A DNA stretch of 37,875 nucleotides from a virus. Where the stretch lies: positions 1-37,875 of IMG/VR virus record IMGVR_UViG_3300028840_003151, one strand, 5' to 3'. The notes under the pieces are model-generated. The model searched no databases, had not been told where the DNA came from, and saw nothing but the letters and a program-made list of their open reading frames with translations. This document shows, one piece after another, positions 1 to 37,875 of the stretch. Positions within the stretch are counted from its first letter, which is position 1. Each line of letters starts with the position of its first letter. The translations under genes were made by a program, and so were the position numbers.

Positions 1-22
1 CGAGGCCGAAGAGGGGGGGTGA
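1..22 (+). CDS. 3' end of the membrane protein gene that starts at 37370 (copy in terminal repeat)
   Basis: The last six codons and the TGA stop (20-22) of the gene at 37370-37753 recur here because of the terminal repeat. This is a window artefact and not a separate gene. It shows that the reading frame continues across the junction. Confidence 0.85.
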
Positions 23-144
23 GGCATGCCTAGTTCATACATTGCCAGTCAGAGAAGCATTCACGTCGGGATCATCGACGACAAGCGCGTCAATGACCTC
101 GAGGACCCCTGGTACATCACCGGGCACTTCCGCGCTCTGCTACG
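1..144. repeat. 144-bp direct terminal repeat, left copy
   Basis: Bases 1-144 are identical to 37732-37875, the end of the window. The repeat contains the last codons of one gene and the first 40 codons of the replication-protein gene, so it is coding sequence read twice. The simplest reading is a circular assembly, or a circularly permuted or terminally redundant phage molecule of about 37,731 bp. The repeat alone does not show whether physical terminal repeats exist. Confidence 0.95.
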
Positions 145-1168
145 CATGGACAATCTCGGCCGCCTCGAGGCGGACCCGTCCCAGCTCCGCGCCATGCTCT
201 TTCCGCGCAACCCCAAAGTCACGCCGCGGAAATGCGCGGCGATGGCCCAGGCCCTCAATGACGTCGGGCTGTTTTTCCTCTACTCGGCGCCGGATGGCGA
301 GCAATTTTTGCAGTCCGCGCGGCCGGACCGACAAAAAATGGTCGGGTCTATGCAGCGCAAGTCGGCACTACCTCCGCCTGACCCCCAAGCCTTTTTGAGT
401 TGGCTCCGCGACGTGAGACGAGACACCCGTTTTCAGGCCCTTTCCGAAGCTGAGTGTTATGAACATGTTACTAACTTGTTACTAACAGGTTCAGAACATG
501 GTGACAACACGTTACCACCAAGTTCGCAACATGTTAGCCCTGAAGAGAAGAGAAATAGAATAGAAAGAGAAGAGAATGAGAAGGGAAGAGAAATAGAAAG
601 AGAAGCGGAAGCGAAGGGACCGGGCGACCCCACCACCCCCCCCGGCACCACCCCGTCGCCTCTCTCTCTCCGCCCTTCTCTCTCCGACCAGGAACGCGAG
701 GCCGAGTTTGACCACGTCGTCGACTCTTTCCATCAGCTCGTCAAGGGCAACCTCACCGCTCAGATCGCCACCACTATCCGCAGGCTCCTCGCCGACCTCG
801 AGCCCACCACCATCATCGACGCTATGAAAACCGGCAAGGCTCAGCTCGACCGCAAACCCGACTGGCCCTACGTCAAGGCTATCATCAACAACTGGCTCGC
901 GTCGGCACAGTCTGAAAACGCCACCCCCGGTGAGCGGAAGGACTATGGACCGCACTGCCCCTTCTCCGTCGGGCTCATCTGCGCATCCAACTGTGCCTCT
1001 CCTGAACACTGCAGACGCCCCGACCACATCAAGCAAGGCATCATCGACGAGTGGAACAAACGGCAGGCCGACATCTGCCCCTTCTGCGAGCTGCCACGCG
1101 ACCTCTGCACCTGCGATACCGACAACCCCCAGGAGGATCAAGCCCATGCCCAACAACAGCAAACCTGA
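26..1168 (+). CDS. Phage replication initiator, DnaD/lambda-O-like, with C-terminal zinc-binding cysteines
   Basis: A 380-residue protein. Residues about 25-100 look like the N-terminal winged-helix domain of phage replication organisers (WYITGHFRALLRMDNL onward). Residues about 175-225 are a charged, Pro-rich linker. Residues about 230-295 resemble the DnaD-type helical domain ending in WPYVKAIINNWL. The C-terminus carries two Cys clusters, including CPFC...CTC, typical of zinc binding. By analogy with O-type proteins it would bind the origin and load the host helicase. It follows the 37370 gene by 3 bases and overlaps the next gene by 23 bases. The linker DNA contains iteron-like repeats and a purine tract, so the origin may lie inside the gene. 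The family is assigned by sequence character only. Confidence 0.7.
   Translation: MPSSYIASQRSIHVGIIDDKRVNDLEDPWYITGHFRALLRMDNLGRLEADPSQLRAMLFPRNPKVTPRKCAAMAQALNDVGLFFLYSAPDGEQFLQSARPDRQKMVGSMQRKSALPPPDPQAFLSWLRDVRRDTRFQALSEAECYEHVTNLLLTGSEHGDNTLPPSSQHVSPEEKRNRIEREENEKGREIEREAEAKGPGDPTTPPGTTPSPLSLRPSLSDQEREAEFDHVVDSFHQLVKGNLTAQIATTIRRLLADLEPTTIIDAMKTGKAQLDRKPDWPYVKAIINNWLASAQSENATPGERKDYGPHCPFSVGLICASNCASPEHCRRPDHIKQGIIDEWNKRQADICPFCELPRDLCTCDTDNPQEDQAHAQQQQT
455..625. other. Candidate replication origin inside the initiator gene
   Basis: Two 13/15-identical repeats (461-475 and 472-486) share the core TTACTAAC. The 9-mer AACATGTTA occurs at 462-470 and 528-536, with a partial copy at 494-500. 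They are followed by a nearly pure purine tract (541-617) and a pyrimidine-rich stretch (about 625-690). This arrangement of iterons next to a low-GC asymmetric tract inside the initiator gene is that of lambdoid origins. It could instead only reflect the charged low-complexity linker, so this is inference. Confidence 0.4.
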
Positions 1169-1409
1169 GTTCGTCTTTCGCGTCCACAACGGCGGCGTTC
1201 AATTCCGCGTCAACAAGCCCGGCCACTGCTGGATCTACGCTCAACCCATCGTCGCCGATGCCTACACCGCCGGCTTCCACGCCGGTGCCTTCCACGCTGG
1301 ACAAGCCTGCTCATGTGCCTTCGCTCGCCAAGTCTCTGACCTGTGCGCCCACGCGGTTTCTCAGCTTCTATCCGAGCCCTCCGAGGCTACGCCGTCCCCC
1401 CGCGGCTGA
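1146..1409 (+). CDS. Small hypothetical phage protein, 87 aa
   Basis: Starts at ATG 1146, nine bases after a perfect AGGAGG (1131-1136), which fixes the start; upstream in-frame codons belong to a shadow of the initiator gene. It overlaps the 3' end of that gene by 23 bases, suggesting translational coupling at the end of the early operon. The protein begins MPNNSKPEFVFRVHNGG and has a central Ala/Gly/His-rich segment with repeated AGFHAGAFHAG followed by two cysteines (CSC). No signal peptide or membrane segment is visible. I do not recognise the family; a small accessory replication role is possible only from position. Confidence 0.65.
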   Translation: MPNNSKPEFVFRVHNGGVQFRVNKPGHCWIYAQPIVADAYTAGFHAGAFHAGQACSCAFARQVSDLCAHAVSQLLSEPSEATPSPRG

Positions 1410-1617
1410 CGTGCCCAAACAAACCTTGGCACTCGGCGAAAAGGCGTCAATGGTGCCCACACGCGCTCGTCGACCTGGGCGCGTTCGTGCGTGGGCGTAG
1501 TAAACAACCGCGCGCGCATGGGCGCGGCCTCGGGGCTACTTGACAAAACATGACTTTTCGCCACTTTTCGAGGCTAGTGGTTCGTACTATGCGCGGTGTG
1601 GGCATTATCGACAGGAC
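1410..1617. other. Intergenic region upstream of the 1.6-kb promoter
   Basis: About 280 bases separate the early genes from the small gene at 1692. I see no convincing gene: the overlapping open frames are low-complexity Arg/Pro/Ser shadows. It holds a direct repeat of ACTTTTCG (1553-1560 and 1563-1570), a TTGACA at 1540 with no good -10 partner, and the 19-base element at 1572-1590 that recurs near the late promoter. Confidence 0.6.
1572..1590 (+). promoter_or_regulatory. 19-bp element GGCTRGTGGTTCGYACTAT, copy 1
   Basis: Matches 2867-2885 at 17 of 19 positions. Both copies lie upstream of a TTGACA-type promoter (27 bases before the -35 here, 6 bases in the second case). Probably an activator or regulator site common to the 1.6-kb and 2.9-kb promoters. 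The protein that binds it is unknown. Confidence 0.5.
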
Positions 1618-15224: not shown

Positions 15225-16349
15225 GTGAGCAATACCCTGCTTACCCCGACGGTAATCGCCAGAGAAGCTCTGCTCGCTTTGGAGAATAACCTGGTGCTCG
15301 GGAACCTGGTTCACCGTGATTTCTCAAACGAGTTCGTCAAGGTGGGTGACACGGTTCGGGTCCGAAAGCCAGCGACGTTCACGGCGGTAGAGTTCGACGG
15401 CGATTTGACGGGTGAGCTGCAGGCGATAACTGAGGGCTACGTCGATGTGAAAATGGACAAGGTCCTCGATGTGTCGTTCGAGCTCACCTCTCAGGAACTC
15501 ACGCTCGACTTGCAGAACTTCCAGACGCAGGTCATGGATCCGGCGATGAGGGCCTTGGCGCAGGCTGTTGACGAGAGGATCGCGCAGCTCGCGCTCGACA
15601 TTCCGTACTTCGTGAGCTACGACGGTACGTCGGATGCCACGAAAACGCAGAATGTCGCGGATATTCGAGCGATGCTCAATACCAACAAGGTCCCCATGGT
15701 CGACCGGCGAGCCGTTCTGGACCCGACGACTGAGTCCAAGCTGATCACGGTTGCGTCCTTCCTCAATGCCGAGAAGCGTGGCGACACGAAGGCACTGAGA
15801 GAAGGCTCGATGGGCCGTGTGATGGGCATGGATTGGTTTATGGATCAGAACATTCAGGCGGCGCCAGCGGATTCCGACGACCTGGCTGGAGCGATCGACA
15901 GCGGCAACGGCGGCTACGCCGCCGGCACGACCACGATCCACGTTGACGCGCTCGGCACGACGGCGATCAAGAAGGGCACGATTCTGACCATCGCGGATTG
16001 CGCTGGACAGTACGTTGTCACAGAGGATGTCACGCCGGGCACGAACGAGTGCGACATCAAGATCTACCCGGGCCTGGCGGCTCAGGCAGTCGAGGACAAG
16101 GTCGTGACGCTGAAAGCCACGCACAAGATGAACCTGGCGTTCCACAAGAACGCTTTTGCCCTGGTAACGAGGCCGCTGGCTCAGCCTCTCGGCGGAGCCA
16201 AAGCTGCCGTCGTGAACTTCCGGGGGCTGAGCTGTCGAGTCGTGTATGACTACACGATCCTGACCAAGACCAACGTCGTGTCCATCGACATTCTGTGCGG
16301 CTTCAAGACGCTCACCCAGGAGCTCGCCTGTCGATACACCTATGCGTAG
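15225..16349 (+). CDS. Major capsid protein, P22 coat-like
   Basis: A 374-residue protein with a GTG start after GGAGG (15211-15215). It opens MSNTLLTPTVIAREALLALENNLVLGNLVHRDF and continues with GDTVRVRKPATF and VDVKMDKVLDVSFELTSQELTL, the hallmark N-terminal region of the P22-type coat family (HK97 fold with an inserted domain). The middle contains a Gly/Ala/Thr-rich beta segment (about 220-280), matching an insertion domain. Neighbours are the scaffold upstream and connector genes downstream. A strong hairpin follows the gene. Confidence 0.9.
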   Translation: MSNTLLTPTVIAREALLALENNLVLGNLVHRDFSNEFVKVGDTVRVRKPATFTAVEFDGDLTGELQAITEGYVDVKMDKVLDVSFELTSQELTLDLQNFQTQVMDPAMRALAQAVDERIAQLALDIPYFVSYDGTSDATKTQNVADIRAMLNTNKVPMVDRRAVLDPTTESKLITVASFLNAEKRGDTKALREGSMGRVMGMDWFMDQNIQAAPADSDDLAGAIDSGNGGYAAGTTTIHVDALGTTAIKKGTILTIADCAGQYVVTEDVTPGTNECDIKIYPGLAAQAVEDKVVTLKATHKMNLAFHKNAFALVTRPLAQPLGGAKAAVVNFRGLSCRVVYDYTILTKTNVVSIDILCGFKTLTQELACRYTYA

Positions 16350-25428: not shown

Positions 25429-25754
25429 TGGACGACGCGAACACCGTTCAGTACCACCTGGGGCGGCTCACGGCAGAGGTTGAGGGACTCAAGACTAGCG
25501 TGGAGAACCTTGCCGAAGCAGTCGGTGACAACGCCGTGGTGGCGGCCCGGGTTGAGGAGGCCATTGACCGCTTGCCCTGCAATGAGAGGCTGGACTCATG
25601 CCAGCGCGAGAGAGACTCCCTCAGCAAGCGCATCAATCATCAAATCGCCACCCGCCGCGAGCGGTCCGGACGCTGGTGGGTCGCGCTCGGCGCGGTCGCC
25701 ACTGCGGTCATTGTGGGGCTTTTTGAGGCTCTCGCCCGTTTCCTCTGGCGTTAG
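25425..25754 (+). CDS. Coiled-coil protein with C-terminal membrane segment (holin-like), 109 aa
   Basis: ATG 25425 overlaps the preceding stop. Residues about 8-50 are a heptad-like coiled coil (HLGRLTAEVEGLKTSVENLAEAV). A C-terminal hydrophobic segment (about 84-104, WWVALGAVATAVIVGLFEALARF) follows a basic region. This architecture occurs in single-span phage membrane proteins with holin or anti-holin roles. It is the last late gene; its 3' end overlaps the integrase gene on the other strand by 47 bases. Confidence 0.55.
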   Translation: MMDDANTVQYHLGRLTAEVEGLKTSVENLAEAVGDNAVVAARVEEAIDRLPCNERLDSCQRERDSLSKRINHQIATRRERSGRWWVALGAVATAVIVGLFEALARFLWR

Positions 25755-26628
25755 CCGCGCCGAACAGGTTGTCGACGGGACTGTACTTCGTGTGTGCCAA
25801 GGCCGCATCCTCAGCATTCAACGACTGAACGTATCTCCGCGTCATTGCCAACGTGCTATGTCCCAAGAGCTGCTGCAGAACAAACTCACCGCCACCGTTG
25901 CGTAGCCAGTTTACGGCGAACGTATGCCGGAACGTGTGCGCGGACCGTCGTGGCCCCTTCAATCCGGCGCGACGGCAGAGCTTGAACACCGTCAGTTTCA
26001 AGCCCCCCAGCGTCATAGGCTGGCGTTCCTCACTCAGCCACAGGCTATCGTAGCCGTTGCGGTAGACGCCATAGTGCCAAAGCGCCTTCTGCGTCACCGA
26101 GCCGATTCGCACCCATCGTTGCTTTGAGCCCTTGCCTTGGACGCGAATCAGGTCCTGTTCGACGTCCGACCAGGTGAGGCGCTGGGCCTCACCGATCCTC
26201 ATGCCGGTGTCCAATAGTAGCAGCACGAGAAGCCGATTGCGGGTGCCAAGGAACGTGTTGGTGGGGCATAGCGTGAGCAGTCCCTCGATGTCCTCTCGTG
26301 AGAATGTCGGGATGATGCTCTGAGGTAGCCGGCCGAGTTTCACTCTCTCGGCGCAATTACCCGTGACGAGGCCTTCGGCTCTGAGCCAGTTCAGGAATGT
26401 GCGCACGATGCGCAGGTCGGTGTGCTGCGTCGCCGTGCTCACTCGCTCGTGACGTTCGGCCAGCCAACTCCGGACGTCGGCTGTCGTCAGCTCCGCGACT
26501 TCTTTCTCTCCAATGTGCTGCGCGAATTGTGACAGCCGTTCCCGGTATGTTCTGAGCGTGTAGTCAGAAACGCGCTCGAGTTTCTTCGCCAGAAGAAACC
26601 CATCGAGGCAATACTGTAATCCAGCCAT
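25708..26628 (-). CDS. int: Tyrosine integrase (XerC/D-like site-specific recombinase)
   Basis: A 306-residue protein. N-terminal SAM-like core-binding domain (residues about 1-95), then the catalytic domain with the full set: Arg144 (TGMRIGEAQRL), Lys166/Lys169 (GKGSK), His231-x-x-Arg234 (HTFRH), His257 (LLGHSTLA) and Tyr266 (TRRYVQ). It joins phage attP to the bacterial attB in a reversible lysogenic reaction. The attP core, a tRNA-Ile 3' half, lies 70 bases upstream of its start. No arm-binding N-terminal extension is evident. It overlaps the convergent late gene. Confidence 0.92.
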   Translation of the reverse strand: MAGLQYCLDGFLLAKKLERVSDYTLRTYRERLSQFAQHIGEKEVAELTTADVRSWLAERHERVSTATQHTDLRIVRTFLNWLRAEGLVTGNCAERVKLGRLPQSIIPTFSREDIEGLLTLCPTNTFLGTRNRLLVLLLLDTGMRIGEAQRLTWSDVEQDLIRVQGKGSKQRWVRIGSVTQKALWHYGVYRNGYDSLWLSEERQPMTLGGLKLTVFKLCRRAGLKGPRRSAHTFRHTFAVNWLRNGGGEFVLQQLLGHSTLAMTRRYVQSLNAEDAALAHTKYSPVDNLFGAANARGNGREPQKAPQ

Positions 26629-26653
26629 TTCGCACCCCCTGAAATACTGTCAT

Positions 26654-26662
26654 CTTCGGTGT
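26654..26662. repeat. Left arm-site candidate, CTTCGGTGT
   Basis: Inverted copy of 26781-26789 (ACACCGAAG). The two lie 35 and 38 bases outside the attP core on each side, a symmetrical layout expected of integrase or accessory-factor binding sites. Confidence 0.45.
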
Positions 26663-26697
26663 TCTGTCAGGTGATGCGCTGCTGTTTTTCGTGCCTG

Positions 26698-26742
26698 TGG
26701 TGGGCCATTCTGGACTCGAACCAGAGACCTCAGTCTTATCAG
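26698..26742 (-). other. attP core: 3' half of tRNA-Ile(GAT)
   Basis: On the minus strand, bases 26742 to 26698 read as the anticodon loop CTGATAA, 3' anticodon stem GACTG, variable loop AGGTC, T-arm TCTGG-TTCGAGT-CCAGA, acceptor ATGGCCC and ACCA of a tRNA-Ile with anticodon GAT. The 5' half is absent: the sequence upstream of the loop does not complete the stem. Insertion at a tRNA-Ile 3' end would restore a full gene in the host. The site sits between integrase and lipoprotein genes. Confidence 0.88.
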
Positions 26743-26768
26743 TTAGGCTGTCGAAAAACTGCTAGCAG

Positions 26769-26793
26769 CGTCGAAAGACGACACCGAAGGTGT
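26769..26793. other. Tandem hairpins between attP and lipoprotein gene
   Basis: CGTC/GACG (26769-26780) and ACACC/GGTGT (26781-26793) are two adjacent short stems; the palindrome CTGCTAGCAG lies just before them at 26759-26768. Read on the minus strand they lie just past the lipoprotein stop, so weak termination is possible as well as a role in attP. Confidence 0.35.
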
Positions 26794-26799
26794 ACGACA

Positions 26800-27276
26800 T
26801 CACCAGATTAGAGAACCCGTCGCCGACGCGACCTCCTCAGGACCAATGAACCCCTGATACTCACCAGCTTGCCCGTAGAACGTCCTGGTCAGTTGCGTGA
26901 TACCAGGTTCGACGGAGTAGCTCAGACGCTCCGTCACCAAGGTCTTGCCGTGACTATCATTCCAATTCAGTCGAACCCTGATACTGATGGCCTCCGGGGA
27001 CTGGTTCTGGATCTCGGCTTCCCACAACGGACATTCCACTTCGACGTCTTTGCTCTCGCAGTGACCGCCGATGCAGATGCTCTCCGTACTCGTGCCGCAG
27101 ACAACGGTATTGGTACTCTGCGCTATGATGTTGACCAACGACCGGTCTACGGTAGGCGTAGGTGTTGGTCCCGGGGTCGGCGTCTCGGTAACACTAGGCG
27201 GCTGTCCTGAACCACAAGCCACGCTGAGGCCCATTATCAGGGCGGTTGCTGCAGCAAGAACCCCCGCTATGCGCAT
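26800..27276 (-). CDS. Lipoprotein, probable lysogenic-conversion or exclusion gene, 158 aa
   Basis: N-terminal signal peptide (MRIAGVLAAATALIMGLSVAC) with a lipobox-like LSVA-Cys21, then a Thr/Pro-rich linker (ETPTPGPTPTPTV) and a beta-rich C-terminal domain with four more cysteines (CGT, CIGG, C, CPLW). It lies 14 bases after the repressor gene on the same strand, so both are likely transcribed in the lysogen. Phage lipoproteins in this position often alter the cell surface or block superinfection; this role is inference. The Thr/Pro linker type is common in Chloroflexota lipoproteins, a weak hint to the host. Confidence 0.75.
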   Translation of the reverse strand: MRIAGVLAAATALIMGLSVACGSGQPPSVTETPTPGPTPTPTVDRSLVNIIAQSTNTVVCGTSTESICIGGHCESKDVEVECPLWEAEIQNQSPEAISIRVRLNWNDSHGKTLVTERLSYSVEPGITQLTRTFYGQAGEYQGFIGPEEVASATGSLIW

Positions 27277-27290
27277 GACGGACCCACTGA

Positions 27291-27881
27291 CTACTTACGT
27301 CTCATTGACTGAGACTTGCCAATCACGGTGCCCTGTATCGTTGCGGATTCGAGCGAGAACTTCTCGTCGTTGCTTTCGAGCCAGGAACGGCCACCTGAGT
27401 CGCGGAACCTTTTGACCATGCACGAACCCTCGACGACCGCAACCACCAGGTCTCCGTCGCGTGGACTGAGGTTGCGGTCAACGATGAGTGTGTCGCCCGG
27501 GTTGATTTCAGGCAGGAGACACTCACCCACCACTTCCAAGCCGAATATGTCAGCCTGCGGTGCAACAGCGGCGGGAATGTAGGCGTATTCCTCAGACGGT
27601 GCGCCCGGACCTGCGGAGCCAACCTGAGTGGTCACCGGCGCGGCTCGTAGCACCAAGTCCCGTAGCGTTGCTGGCTCGTCGTGAAGGAAATCGTGGATAT
27701 TCTGCCCGAGGACGCGCGCTAACTCGTAGAGATGCTCTAACCGGATCGGCTGCGTGCCCCGTTCCCACCGTCCGATACTGACGTCAGACACACCAATGGC
27801 CTTCGCCAGTTGCACGCGACTCATGCCCTTGAGAACCCGGGCAAGCTCGATCCTCTTCCCGATTAGCTTTCGTCGTTCCAT
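27291..27881 (-). CDS. CI/LexA-type repressor (HTH + S24-like C-terminal domain), 196 aa
   Basis: Start ATG at 27881 chosen because GGGGG lies seven bases upstream; a longer form from GTG 27902 has no ribosome site. HTH_3 domain at residues about 7-60 (LAKAIGVSDVSIGRWERG). The C-terminal part matches the S24 fold: VVGECLLPEINPGDT, then RDGDLVVAVVEGSCMVKRF. The usual catalytic Ser in G-x-SM-x-P is Cys121; the general-base Lys157 remains. An Ala-Gly bond (90-91) before the domain could be a cleavage site. It would bind operators in the divergent promoter region. Confidence 0.85.
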   Translation of the reverse strand: MERRKLIGKRIELARVLKGMSRVQLAKAIGVSDVSIGRWERGTQPIRLEHLYELARVLGQNIHDFLHDEPATLRDLVLRAAPVTTQVGSAGPGAPSEEYAYIPAAVAPQADIFGLEVVGECLLPEINPGDTLIVDRNLSPRDGDLVVAVVEGSCMVKRFRDSGGRSWLESNDEKFSLESATIQGTVIGKSQSMRRK

Positions 27882-27911
27882 GATGTAGCCCCCTTGCATC
27901 ACGTCCCGAAT

Positions 27912-29235: not shown

Positions 29236-29931
29236 ATGCGTCAAGTGAAAACACAGAAAGCCTTGGATGCAGCCATTAAGAAGGGCGAAATCGTCCGCGT
29301 CAAGTCGGGTTTGTATTGTATCTCCGGCAACGCCAGGGTGTACGCCTACGGCAACGCCAGGGTGGACGCCTCCGGCAACGCCAGGGTGGACGCCTCCGGC
29401 AACGCCAGGGTGGACGCCTCCGGCAACGCCAGTGTGTACGCCTCCGGCAACGCCAGTGTGTACGCCTCCGGCTATAGTGCCGCAGTCAGGCGGTCAGCGC
29501 AGGCGGAGTGCCGAGGGAATGTATTGGATTTAACGACCCGCCCAGAGACAGTGGAGCAATGGCTAGCACGTTACCACGTCGCATTCCATGATGGCCTACC
29601 ACTGCTCTACAAAGCTACTCATGCGAATTATGCGACCCAGAACGGTGTCAGCTATGTTCCTGGCACCGACGTTGTGGCACCGGATTGGGAAGACCGTTCA
29701 GACATCGAGTGCGGCAGCGGCCTACATTTCTGCTGGTGCGCAGCAGCCTGTCGACAGTTCAACCGAGAGCCAGCGCACTTCATAGCCTGCCAAGTGGCTA
29801 TCGAGGACATACGCATCTACGATGGCCAGCCACAATGGCCCGACAAAATCCGGGCGCGAGCATGCCGAGCGCTGTATGAATGCGATGAGGATGGGAATCG
29901 AGTTGCCAAGGAGGAAGGAGCAGGGCAATGA
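29236..29931 (+). CDS. Octapeptide-repeat protein with C-terminal conserved domain, 231 aa
   Basis: ATG 29236 with AAAGGAG eight bases upstream. Residues 31-78 are six tandem octapeptides, such as GNARVDAS and GNASVYAS, which suits a left-handed beta-helix or a repeat-capping stack. Residues about 95-215 form a mixed domain with YKATHANYATQNGVSYVPG and ECGSGLHFCW, a pattern common in phage proteins that carry such repeats (like DUF7666). The repeats could bind surface or DNA; no enzyme residues are evident. The repeats are also a nearly identical 24-bp tandem array. Confidence 0.65.
   Translation: MRQVKTQKALDAAIKKGEIVRVKSGLYCISGNARVYAYGNARVDASGNARVDASGNARVDASGNASVYASGNASVYASGYSAAVRRSAQAECRGNVLDLTTRPETVEQWLARYHVAFHDGLPLLYKATHANYATQNGVSYVPGTDVVAPDWEDRSDIECGSGLHFCWCAAACRQFNREPAHFIACQVAIEDIRIYDGQPQWPDKIRARACRALYECDEDGNRVAKEEGAGQ
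29326..29469 (+). repeat. Six tandem 24-bp repeats (in-frame minisatellite)
   Basis: Six consecutive 24-bp units (29326-29349, 29350-29373, 29374-29397, 29398-29421, 29422-29445, 29446-29469). Units 2-4 are identical to one another and units 5-6 are identical to one another; copy-number change would stay in frame. Confidence 0.9.
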
Positions 29932-36399: not shown

Positions 36400-36473
36400 C
36401 GCGGAGTGGCGCAGCGGGAGCGCGCGGGACCCATGATCCCGAGGCCGGGGGGTTCAACTCCCCCCTCCGCTAC
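36400..36473 (+). tRNA. tRNA(CAT), initiator-like acceptor end
   Basis: 74 nt with encoded CCA. Acceptor stem: pairs 2-7 are perfect (36401-36406 with 36463-36468); pair 1-72 is C-T, unpaired as in initiator tRNAs. T8 and the T-arm (GGGGG-TTCAACT-CCCCC) are regular. D-stem GCGC/GCGC (36409-36412 / 36420-36423). Anticodon stem CGGGA/TCCCG (36423-36427 / 36435-36439), loop CCCATGA, anticodon CAT. It lacks the usual base 26, since C36423 is needed by both stems, and has C at the normally invariant T33. It is probably an altered tRNA-fMet; a Met or Ile2 role is not excluded. Confidence 0.8.
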
Positions 36474-36518
36474 CAATGTAACTACCAGGAGTGACTACTA
36501 ACGAGGGGCAAGCCGATT

Positions 36519-37369: not shown

Positions 37370-37753
37370 ATGGATAGCATCGTGATCGTTTGCCTGGTTT
37401 GCCTCGGGGGATGCATAGCCTTGGCATTCCTCACCCTGGGCCTGGCAGGGTTGGTCCTCAAGCTCTACACCGAATACTTGAAAGACCAGAAGCAAGACCG
37501 GCGCCAGGCAAAGCAGCCCGGAATTCCCTTGGAGGGGCAGAAGCTCATCGCGCGACTTGATGGCACGCCGGGCCTACGGGACCCTGACGCACCGTGCGAC
37601 CGTATCCTGCCCCGGATGGTGTTCGACGTTGACGGCAAGATCATGTCAGCGCTTGACGACGGCTTGCCGGCGGATCTGGAGGAACGGATGCGCGCCAGGC
37701 ACCGCGACTGGAACGACCAGGCCGAGCGAGCCGAGGCCGAAGAGGGGGGGTGA
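37370..37753 (+). CDS. Single-span membrane protein, 127 aa
   Basis: ATG 37370 after GAGGGGG. Residues about 4-31 are a hydrophobic span (IVIVCLVCLGGCIALAFLTLGL and on), followed by a positively charged helix and an acidic C-terminus (RDWNDQAERAEAEEGG), so the tail is presumably cytoplasmic. It ends three bases before the replication initiator. No recognised family. Confidence 0.6.
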   Translation: MDSIVIVCLVCLGGCIALAFLTLGLAGLVLKLYTEYLKDQKQDRRQAKQPGIPLEGQKLIARLDGTPGLRDPDAPCDRILPRMVFDVDGKIMSALDDGLPADLEERMRARHRDWNDQAERAEAEEGG

Positions 37754-37875
37754 GGCATGCCTAGTTCATACATTGCCAGTCAGAGAAGCATTCACGTCGG
37801 GATCATCGACGACAAGCGCGTCAATGACCTCGAGGACCCCTGGTACATCACCGGGCACTTCCGCGCTCTGCTACG
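37732..37875. repeat. 144-bp direct terminal repeat, right copy
   Basis: Exact repeat of bases 1-144. Contains the end of the 37370 gene and the start of the initiator gene. Confidence 0.95.
37757..37875 (+). CDS. 5' end of the replication initiator gene (copy in terminal repeat)
   Basis: ATG 37757 is the same start as at position 26. The gene runs out of the window after 39 full codons; its full form is 26-1168. This duplicate is a window artefact of circular or redundant ends. Confidence 0.9.
   Translation, partial: MPSSYIASQRSIHVGIIDDKRVNDLEDPWYITGHFRALL

Follow-up and report, generated by a model that had tools for sequence, protein, structure and literature searches.

The tRNA-Ile fragment and the phage attachment site

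A 45-bp piece of a tRNA gene stands in front of an integrase gene in the phage DNA analyzed here, with inverted repeats on both sides, and the arrangement raises the questions of whether this segment is the attachment site of the phage and which of its sequences the integrase would use. The window (the whole stretch of DNA that was analyzed, a virus record of 37,875 bases) encodes, among other products, a P22-type coat protein, a large terminase, a Cro/C1-S24 repressor, RusA, and recombination proteins. The first and last 144 bases of the record are identical, so the record closes to a circle and the site is accordingly attP rather than attL or attR. The segment lies between the integrase gene and the next upstream gene, whose stop is at 26800, and the tRNA fragment is located 69 bp before the integrase gene. 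The main features are as follows.

1 to 144, plus strand: direct terminal repeat, identical to 37732-37875
25708 to 26628, minus strand: tyrosine integrase of 306 aa with core-binding and catalytic domains, Xer-like (domain and profile matches)
26698 to 26742, minus strand: proposed shared attP/attB core, the 3' 45 bp of tRNA-Ile(GAT) from C32 (anticodon loop) to CCA (exact match, 21 of 21 genome loci, ARAGORN)
27291 to 27902, minus strand: phage repressor (HTH_3 and Peptidase_S24), two genes upstream of the integrase

The 45-mer was searched in a collection of bacterial and archaeal genomes with one genome per species (84,980 species). It was present in 21 genome stretches, each of which contained an intact tRNA-Ile(GAT) according to ARAGORN, so that the search for tRNA-Ile genes with the same last 45 bases, suggested in a preliminary description of this DNA, was productive. 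The identity of the window with these loci and with the viral contigs L002 and L003 is continuous from C32 to CCA, and the flanks differ; phage and host thus agree at 45 of 45 positions between the start of the anticodon loop and the 3' end of the tRNA, as do the two copies in the relative G034 described below. In L002 and L003, which were judged by shared genes to be one virus, these 45 bases recur without change in front of a different integrase gene, and searches of viral contigs with wider tRNA patterns returned these two contigs again and nothing else. The gene order of L002 is similar to that of the window, with an XRE/S24-like repressor frame (931-1554, plus strand, named by eye), the attP with its tRNA-Ile fragment, and the integrase. 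Neither an integrated copy of this phage nor an attB-attP pair from one host was found in the genome collection and the Dehalococcoidia genomes (hereafter class genomes). The relatives L025 (integrase 79%), L096, and L097 (MCP 84%) are short contigs in which attP is, as far as we found, not covered, L025 ending inside the integrase.

Integrated relatives and the point of strand exchange

We searched 393 class genomes with the window integrase and obtained a match at E 1e-30 or better in 85. About 120 integrase places were listed, of which a part, 83 stretches, was analyzed (including L056, L177, and L178, the last being the same place as L080). An intact tRNA on the same strand was located just upstream of the integrase in 42 of the 83 stretches and was lacking there in 41. 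In seven cases (L081, L084, L187, L191, L195, L210, and L227) the intact tRNA just upstream of the integrase is on the opposite strand, a different geometry. The window integrase is a member of an arm-less, Xer-like family that occurs in many Dehalococcoidia and at many different tRNAs. Tandem pairs of related integrase genes about 2 kb apart were also seen in Dehalococcoidia genomes (G092:C101, G146:C16, G199:C26, G316:C43, and G389:C77).

Three integrases were found directly 3' of an intact tRNA-Ile, namely L076 (G034, 42%), L078 (G250, 39%), and L079 (G153, 42%). G034 contains an intact tRNA-Ile (981132-981208) and a bare fragment (955564-955608) on one strand, 25.6 kb apart and sharing the exact 45 bp; on sequence comparison this pair is attL and attR. 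Among seven large frames of the G034 element tested with Pfam, we identified the integrase and a DnaG-type zinc-ribbon protein and found no capsid or terminase. In G030, a bare tRNA fragment is present on one contig and an intact tRNA near the end of another. When the downstream DNA of 21 family loci was inspected, tRNA fragments were detected in 8 (nine fragments, from tRNA-Ala, Lys, Pro, Met, Gly, and Ile, a count from which the tRNA of L078 and another intact tRNA-Pro close to L083 are excluded), and none was detected in the downstream DNA fetched for the other 13. All nine fragments begin at the anticodon loop, and strand exchange is for this reason placed in the loop, most likely at CTGATAA in the window, the cleavage positions being deduced from the repeat ends. 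The core would then consist of three parts.

26726 to 26735, minus strand: GACTGAGGTC, putative right core half-site (3' anticodon stem), adjoining the loop; its reverse complement is one of two motifs copied in the P' arms of relatives
26736 to 26742, minus strand: CTGATAA, tRNA anticodon loop, putative 7-bp overlap (strand-exchange) region; identity starts here on the 5' side in the window, L002, G034, and G030, as it does in eight further fragments of five other tRNA species
26743 to 26757, minus strand: TTTTCGACAGCCTAA, putative P-side left core half-site with TTTT at -15 to -12, a run found by eye in the same register in 7 of 10 P arms

The preliminary description had proposed that the segment is an attP formed from the 3' half of tRNA-Ile(GAT). 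On the basis of the exact tRNA match, the adjacent integrase, the related integrases at tRNA-Ile, and the attL/attR pairs of relatives, the identification as a phage attP that would target a host tRNA-Ile gene is well supported.

An integrase lacking the arm-binding domain and the inverted repeats around the core

The catalytic domain of the integrase (Phage_integrase, PF00589) was matched at residues 110-270 with E 8.7e-30, its SAM-like core-binding domain starts at residue 8-12, and residues 5-268 align end to end with XerD 7-279. The N-terminal arm-binding domain is absent from the protein by both the domain search and the XerD alignment; with a catalytic domain and no arm-binding domain, the protein is a simple tyrosine recombinase (core-binding plus catalytic domains). 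The best curated models include XerC, XerA, and XerD, all scoring below their cut-offs, and we rejected assignments as an XerC/XerD dimer-resolution recombinase (XerC, 155 bits against a required 335; XerD, 134 against a required 330) and as an integron integrase (TIGR02249, 70.4 bits versus a cut-off of 265).

An inverted 9-bp pair at near-equal distances from the tRNA fragment had been pointed out earlier and suggested to be arm sites. The pair is present (CTTCGGTGT at 26654-26662 and ACACCGAAG at 26781-26789, 35 and 38 bp from the fragment), and it is longer than described and accompanied by a second, nested pair.

26651 to 26662 and 26781 to 26792, no strand: distal inverted repeat I1, two arms of 12 nt each (11/12 alike) that extend the 9-mers
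26681 to 26691 and 26752 to 26762, no strand: proximal inverted repeat I2, GCTGTTTTTCG and CGAAAAACTGC

Both pairs share one dyad axis at 26721.5. When one of the 80-bp flanks was locally aligned with the reverse complement of the other, the score was 17, a value that 3 out of 2000 dinucleotide-shuffled sequences attained; the inverted repeat is stronger than expected by chance. Comparison of 10 P/P' arm pairs led us to reject inverted arms as a family rule, the repeat being weak or absent in most of the nine other pairs. Only the window and G117Lys_b lie beyond all mononucleotide shuffles, and the weak inverted repeat of the L002 pair has a score reached by 2 of 1000 mononucleotide shuffles but by 72 of 2000 dinucleotide shuffles. 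The proximal part coincides with the recurring T-run of the P arms noted above. Of 42 P' arms, 8 (L076, L078, L089, L091, L056, L177, L217, and L218) have a GCTAAAA or CGAAAA motif within the first 25 nt beyond the tRNA, and TTTTAGC, its inverted partner, is found on the P side in G034 and G117.

Two explanations center on this inverted repeat. The segment could be a canonical lambda-type attP whose inverted 9-mers are arm sites for the N-terminal arm-binding domain of the integrase, as the near-equal spacing and the above-chance score would suggest, but the integrase begins at its core-binding domain, the distal 9-mer was found in 0 of 42 P' arms of relatives, and an inverted repeat above shuffles is seen in only two of the nine other arm pairs (G117Lys_b and, weakly, L002). 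The arm-site reading is therefore not supported, given an Xer-like integrase without the arm-binding domain and a motif absent from 42 relatives, and we consider it very unlikely. The repeat might instead act as RNA. Folding of the attP region gave an MFE of -55.1 kcal/mol, which none of 200 dinucleotide shuffles equaled, and the fold surpassed all of 300 flank shuffles in which the tRNA was kept (z -4.15; z -3.85 to -4.15 over both tests), with the arms flanking the integrase leader. Transcripts reading through from the upstream gene would then form a long hairpin ahead of the integrase start, which would reduce expression of the enzyme in the free phage, and integration is predicted to part the two arms and place the integrase behind the tRNA-Ile promoter. 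Against this idea, the attP of L002 has no comparable fold (z -1.08), and neither a sigma-70 promoter nor a minus-strand terminator was found near attP. A hairpin on the integrase leader is thus one candidate role of the inverted repeat, possible though doubtful, and it is compatible, as a second layer, with the explanation that we prefer, which is built on direct repeats.

Direct repeats that resemble the target half-site

In the first loci inspected, the gap between the tRNA and the integrase holds paired copies of the anticodon-stem half-site of the locus's own tRNA. The half-site test set consisted of the 42 loci, out of 83 stretches, in which an intact tRNA on the integrase strand lies just upstream. 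Against the half-sites of their own tRNA, the two best 10-mers scored a mean of 16.2 of 20 (n = 42); the mean was 13.6 with half-sites of other tRNAs, 13.1 on the opposite strand, and 13.2 in shuffled sequence. The own half-site outscored swapped tRNAs in 39 of the 42 loci (Wilcoxon 3.4e-8) and in 25 of 28 held-out loci that had not been used to form the idea (p 1.1e-5). When direct repeats of at least 10/12 were sought without using the tRNA, the spacing was 47 in seven loci, 48 in eight, 46 in two, and 24 in four, with 0.14 expected per spacing. In the half of the integrase tree that includes the window, most members have a first repeat (DR1) that begins 23-26 or 44-46 bases past the tRNA, giving two offset classes about 21 bp apart. 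In many loci the second repeat (DR2) directly precedes or overlaps the start of the integrase gene. Regularity is lower in the other half of the tree, and no convincing pair was found in L192, L218, L219, L222, L231, and L238. The tree of 44 rows, in which the window integrase is not firmly placed, contains 19 changes of target, and the repeats change along with the target tRNA; for the sisters L076 and L091, GAGCACAGTC fits tRNA-Ile (L076) and GACCTCTTGC fits tRNA-Val (L091).

The window has a pair of its own.

26643 to 26654, minus strand: DR1, GATGACAGTATT, candidate accessory site for the integrase, 44 nt past the end of the tRNA, an offset shared with DR1 of L076 and L078, two relatives at tRNA-Ile
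26610 to 26621, minus strand: DR2, GATTACAGTATT, second candidate accessory site (repeat search), 33 bp on and over integrase codons 3-7

DR1 and DR2 are 11/12 alike, which was matched by 3 of 1000 shuffles, and they are the two best matches of the arm to the half-site plus loop edge, GACCTCAGTCTT, at 8/12 each. They fit their own tRNA core less well than the repeats of most relatives do, and their spacing is 33 rather than 47-48, the nearest similar case being L094 with 34. The window fits the family repeat rule in kind and less well in detail. L002 has GACCACAGTATT (10/12) at offset 54, and a clear partner at the family spacing was not found there.

Proposed mechanism and alternatives

We propose, with a probability of about 0.8, that a temperate tailed phage uses the segment as its attP and that its arm-less integrase exchanges strands at the anticodon loop of tRNA-Ile(GAT) with the P' direct repeats as accessory sites. 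The integrase would recombine attP with the host tRNA-Ile(GAT) gene at CTGATAA, 7 bp present in both, and the phage-borne 45 bp would restore the 3' part of the tRNA gene. The products would be an attL in which the tRNA adjoins the integrase and an attR with a bare 45-bp fragment, as seen by comparison in relatives and expected for this phage. Extra molecules of the integrase that acts at the core would bind both direct repeats; so occupied, the repeats would identify the P' arm as belonging to the phage and take over the function of arm sites. Overlap of the repeats with the integrase start may also allow repression of the integrase gene. We give slightly better than even odds to the broader view that the family solves attP/attB discrimination without arm sites by keeping the target half-site in two additional copies, at a fixed helical spacing beside the core, which are rewritten when the integrase switches to another tRNA. 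The predicted function of the half-site pair in such discrimination includes its being read by the same DNA-binding surface of the integrase. If this view is correct, the repeat pair is a readable record of which tRNA an element targets.

The direct repeats might be only operators for integrase autoregulation, outside the recombination complex. DR2 is placed immediately ahead of or across the integrase start in many loci and on codons 3-7 in the window, which agrees with such a role, but the repeats copy the tRNA half-site, keep a fixed spacing, and fall into two offset classes measured from the tRNA, properties that are expected of site geometry rather than of a promoter; we regard a purely regulatory role as unlikely. 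That the 45 bp are a chance tRNA-like sequence or the relic of a phage tRNA, with no part in integration, is barely conceivable, even though phages do carry tRNA genes and this one has a tRNA-Met gene at 36400-36475: the match covers 45 of 45 bases, ends exactly at CCA beside an integrase, and recurs in a second virus, and the family has attL/attR pairs.

Comparison with known systems

The attP of SSV-type elements splits the integrase gene, whereas the integrase gene of the window phage stays whole. The SSV1-type archaeal integrases nevertheless resemble our proposal in that their strand exchange is described as bordering the tRNA anticodon loop (PMC8371274). Among bacterial systems, the arm-less or "simple" tyrosine integrases of the IntBrujita type, as presented in the passages cited, likewise have core-binding and catalytic domains only, and a tRNA target is reported for the related phage Weirdo19ES (PMC8138268, PMC7194413). 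Brujita itself is described there as having no arm-type sites and an attP inside the repressor gene (PMC8138268, PMC7194413), in contrast to the window attP, which lies between genes, and to its family, which has a pair of half-site copies beside the core.

Integron attI1 is perhaps the closest working analogue for accessory half-sites. It too is used by a simple tyrosine recombinase and has, in the cited account, a core of two inverted half-sites with two direct-repeat sites on one side; these repeats are reported to favor attI1 x attC, to be dispensable for attI1 x attI1, and are proposed to act as topological filters (PMC8946536). The integron target is a cassette attC, whereas the window family targets a tRNA gene that its repeats follow, and the window protein is far below the integron-integrase cut-offs. 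Genomic islands of Dehalococcoides, in the same bacterial class, are located at tRNA-Ala, Val, Lys, and Arg with tRNA 3' fragments as end direct repeats, so that a tRNA target itself is ordinary; half-site repeats are not described in the portions consulted (PMC2764846). Islands at ssrA are reported to use a serine recombinase (PMC3146451). In the literature covered (titles, abstract openings, and passages, with subscription papers mostly outside), we found no description of tRNA half-site repeats beside arm-less integrases. What appears to be new here is arm-less integration with putative accessory sites copied from the target. How arm-less integrases discriminate attP from attB and set the direction of recombination is poorly understood, and a family with tRNA-copied, fixed-spacing sites that follow the target makes discrimination testable, offering a natural series of retargeted integrases.

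Host of the phage

The preliminary description had also offered the tRNA fragment as a clue to the host, and it works as one, pointing to Chloroflexota: 19 of the 21 stretches with the 45-mer are titled Chloroflexi, Dehalococcoidia, Dehalococcoidales, or Tepidiforma(ceae). The remaining two are titled "Bacterium" and "Acidimicrobiia", and the latter is probably a stray contig because it has the same flanking sequences as the Dehalococcoidia records L007 and L023. The exact tRNA together with the integrase family indicates that the host class is most likely Dehalococcoidia. The GC content of the window is 0.604, and that of the tRNA-Ile loci is 0.595-0.655 beside tRNA-Ala and 0.466-0.499 for a lone tRNA-Ile; the host assignment accordingly stays at the level of the class. 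MCP relatives in class genomes were remote matches in 4 of 393, and no relatives of the repressor were found in viral contigs; the host assignment rests on the tRNA and the integrase for these reasons. The exact tRNA signature would link uncultured Dehalococcoidia to temperate phages and islands.

Other features of the record

The P22-type coat protein is encoded at 15225-16349 on the plus strand (PF11651, E 1.9e-56), and the remaining structural genes, including one for a 2127-aa protein, are mostly without matches. The phage-borne tRNA-Met(CAT) gene at 36400-36475 on the plus strand was called by both ARAGORN and Rfam; with its CAT anticodon it could also be tRNA-Ile2. An ARAGORN call of tRNA-His at 25966-26054 was taken as false because it falls within the integrase gene and Rfam gives no tRNA match for it. 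Tandem repeats of 24 bp at 29298-29489 (plus strand) lie within a 231-aa reading frame with a weak DUF7666 match and encode an eight-residue repeat, and a purine-rich 11-bp tandem repeat occupies 545-621 within the first gene, which has a weak replication-initiation match.
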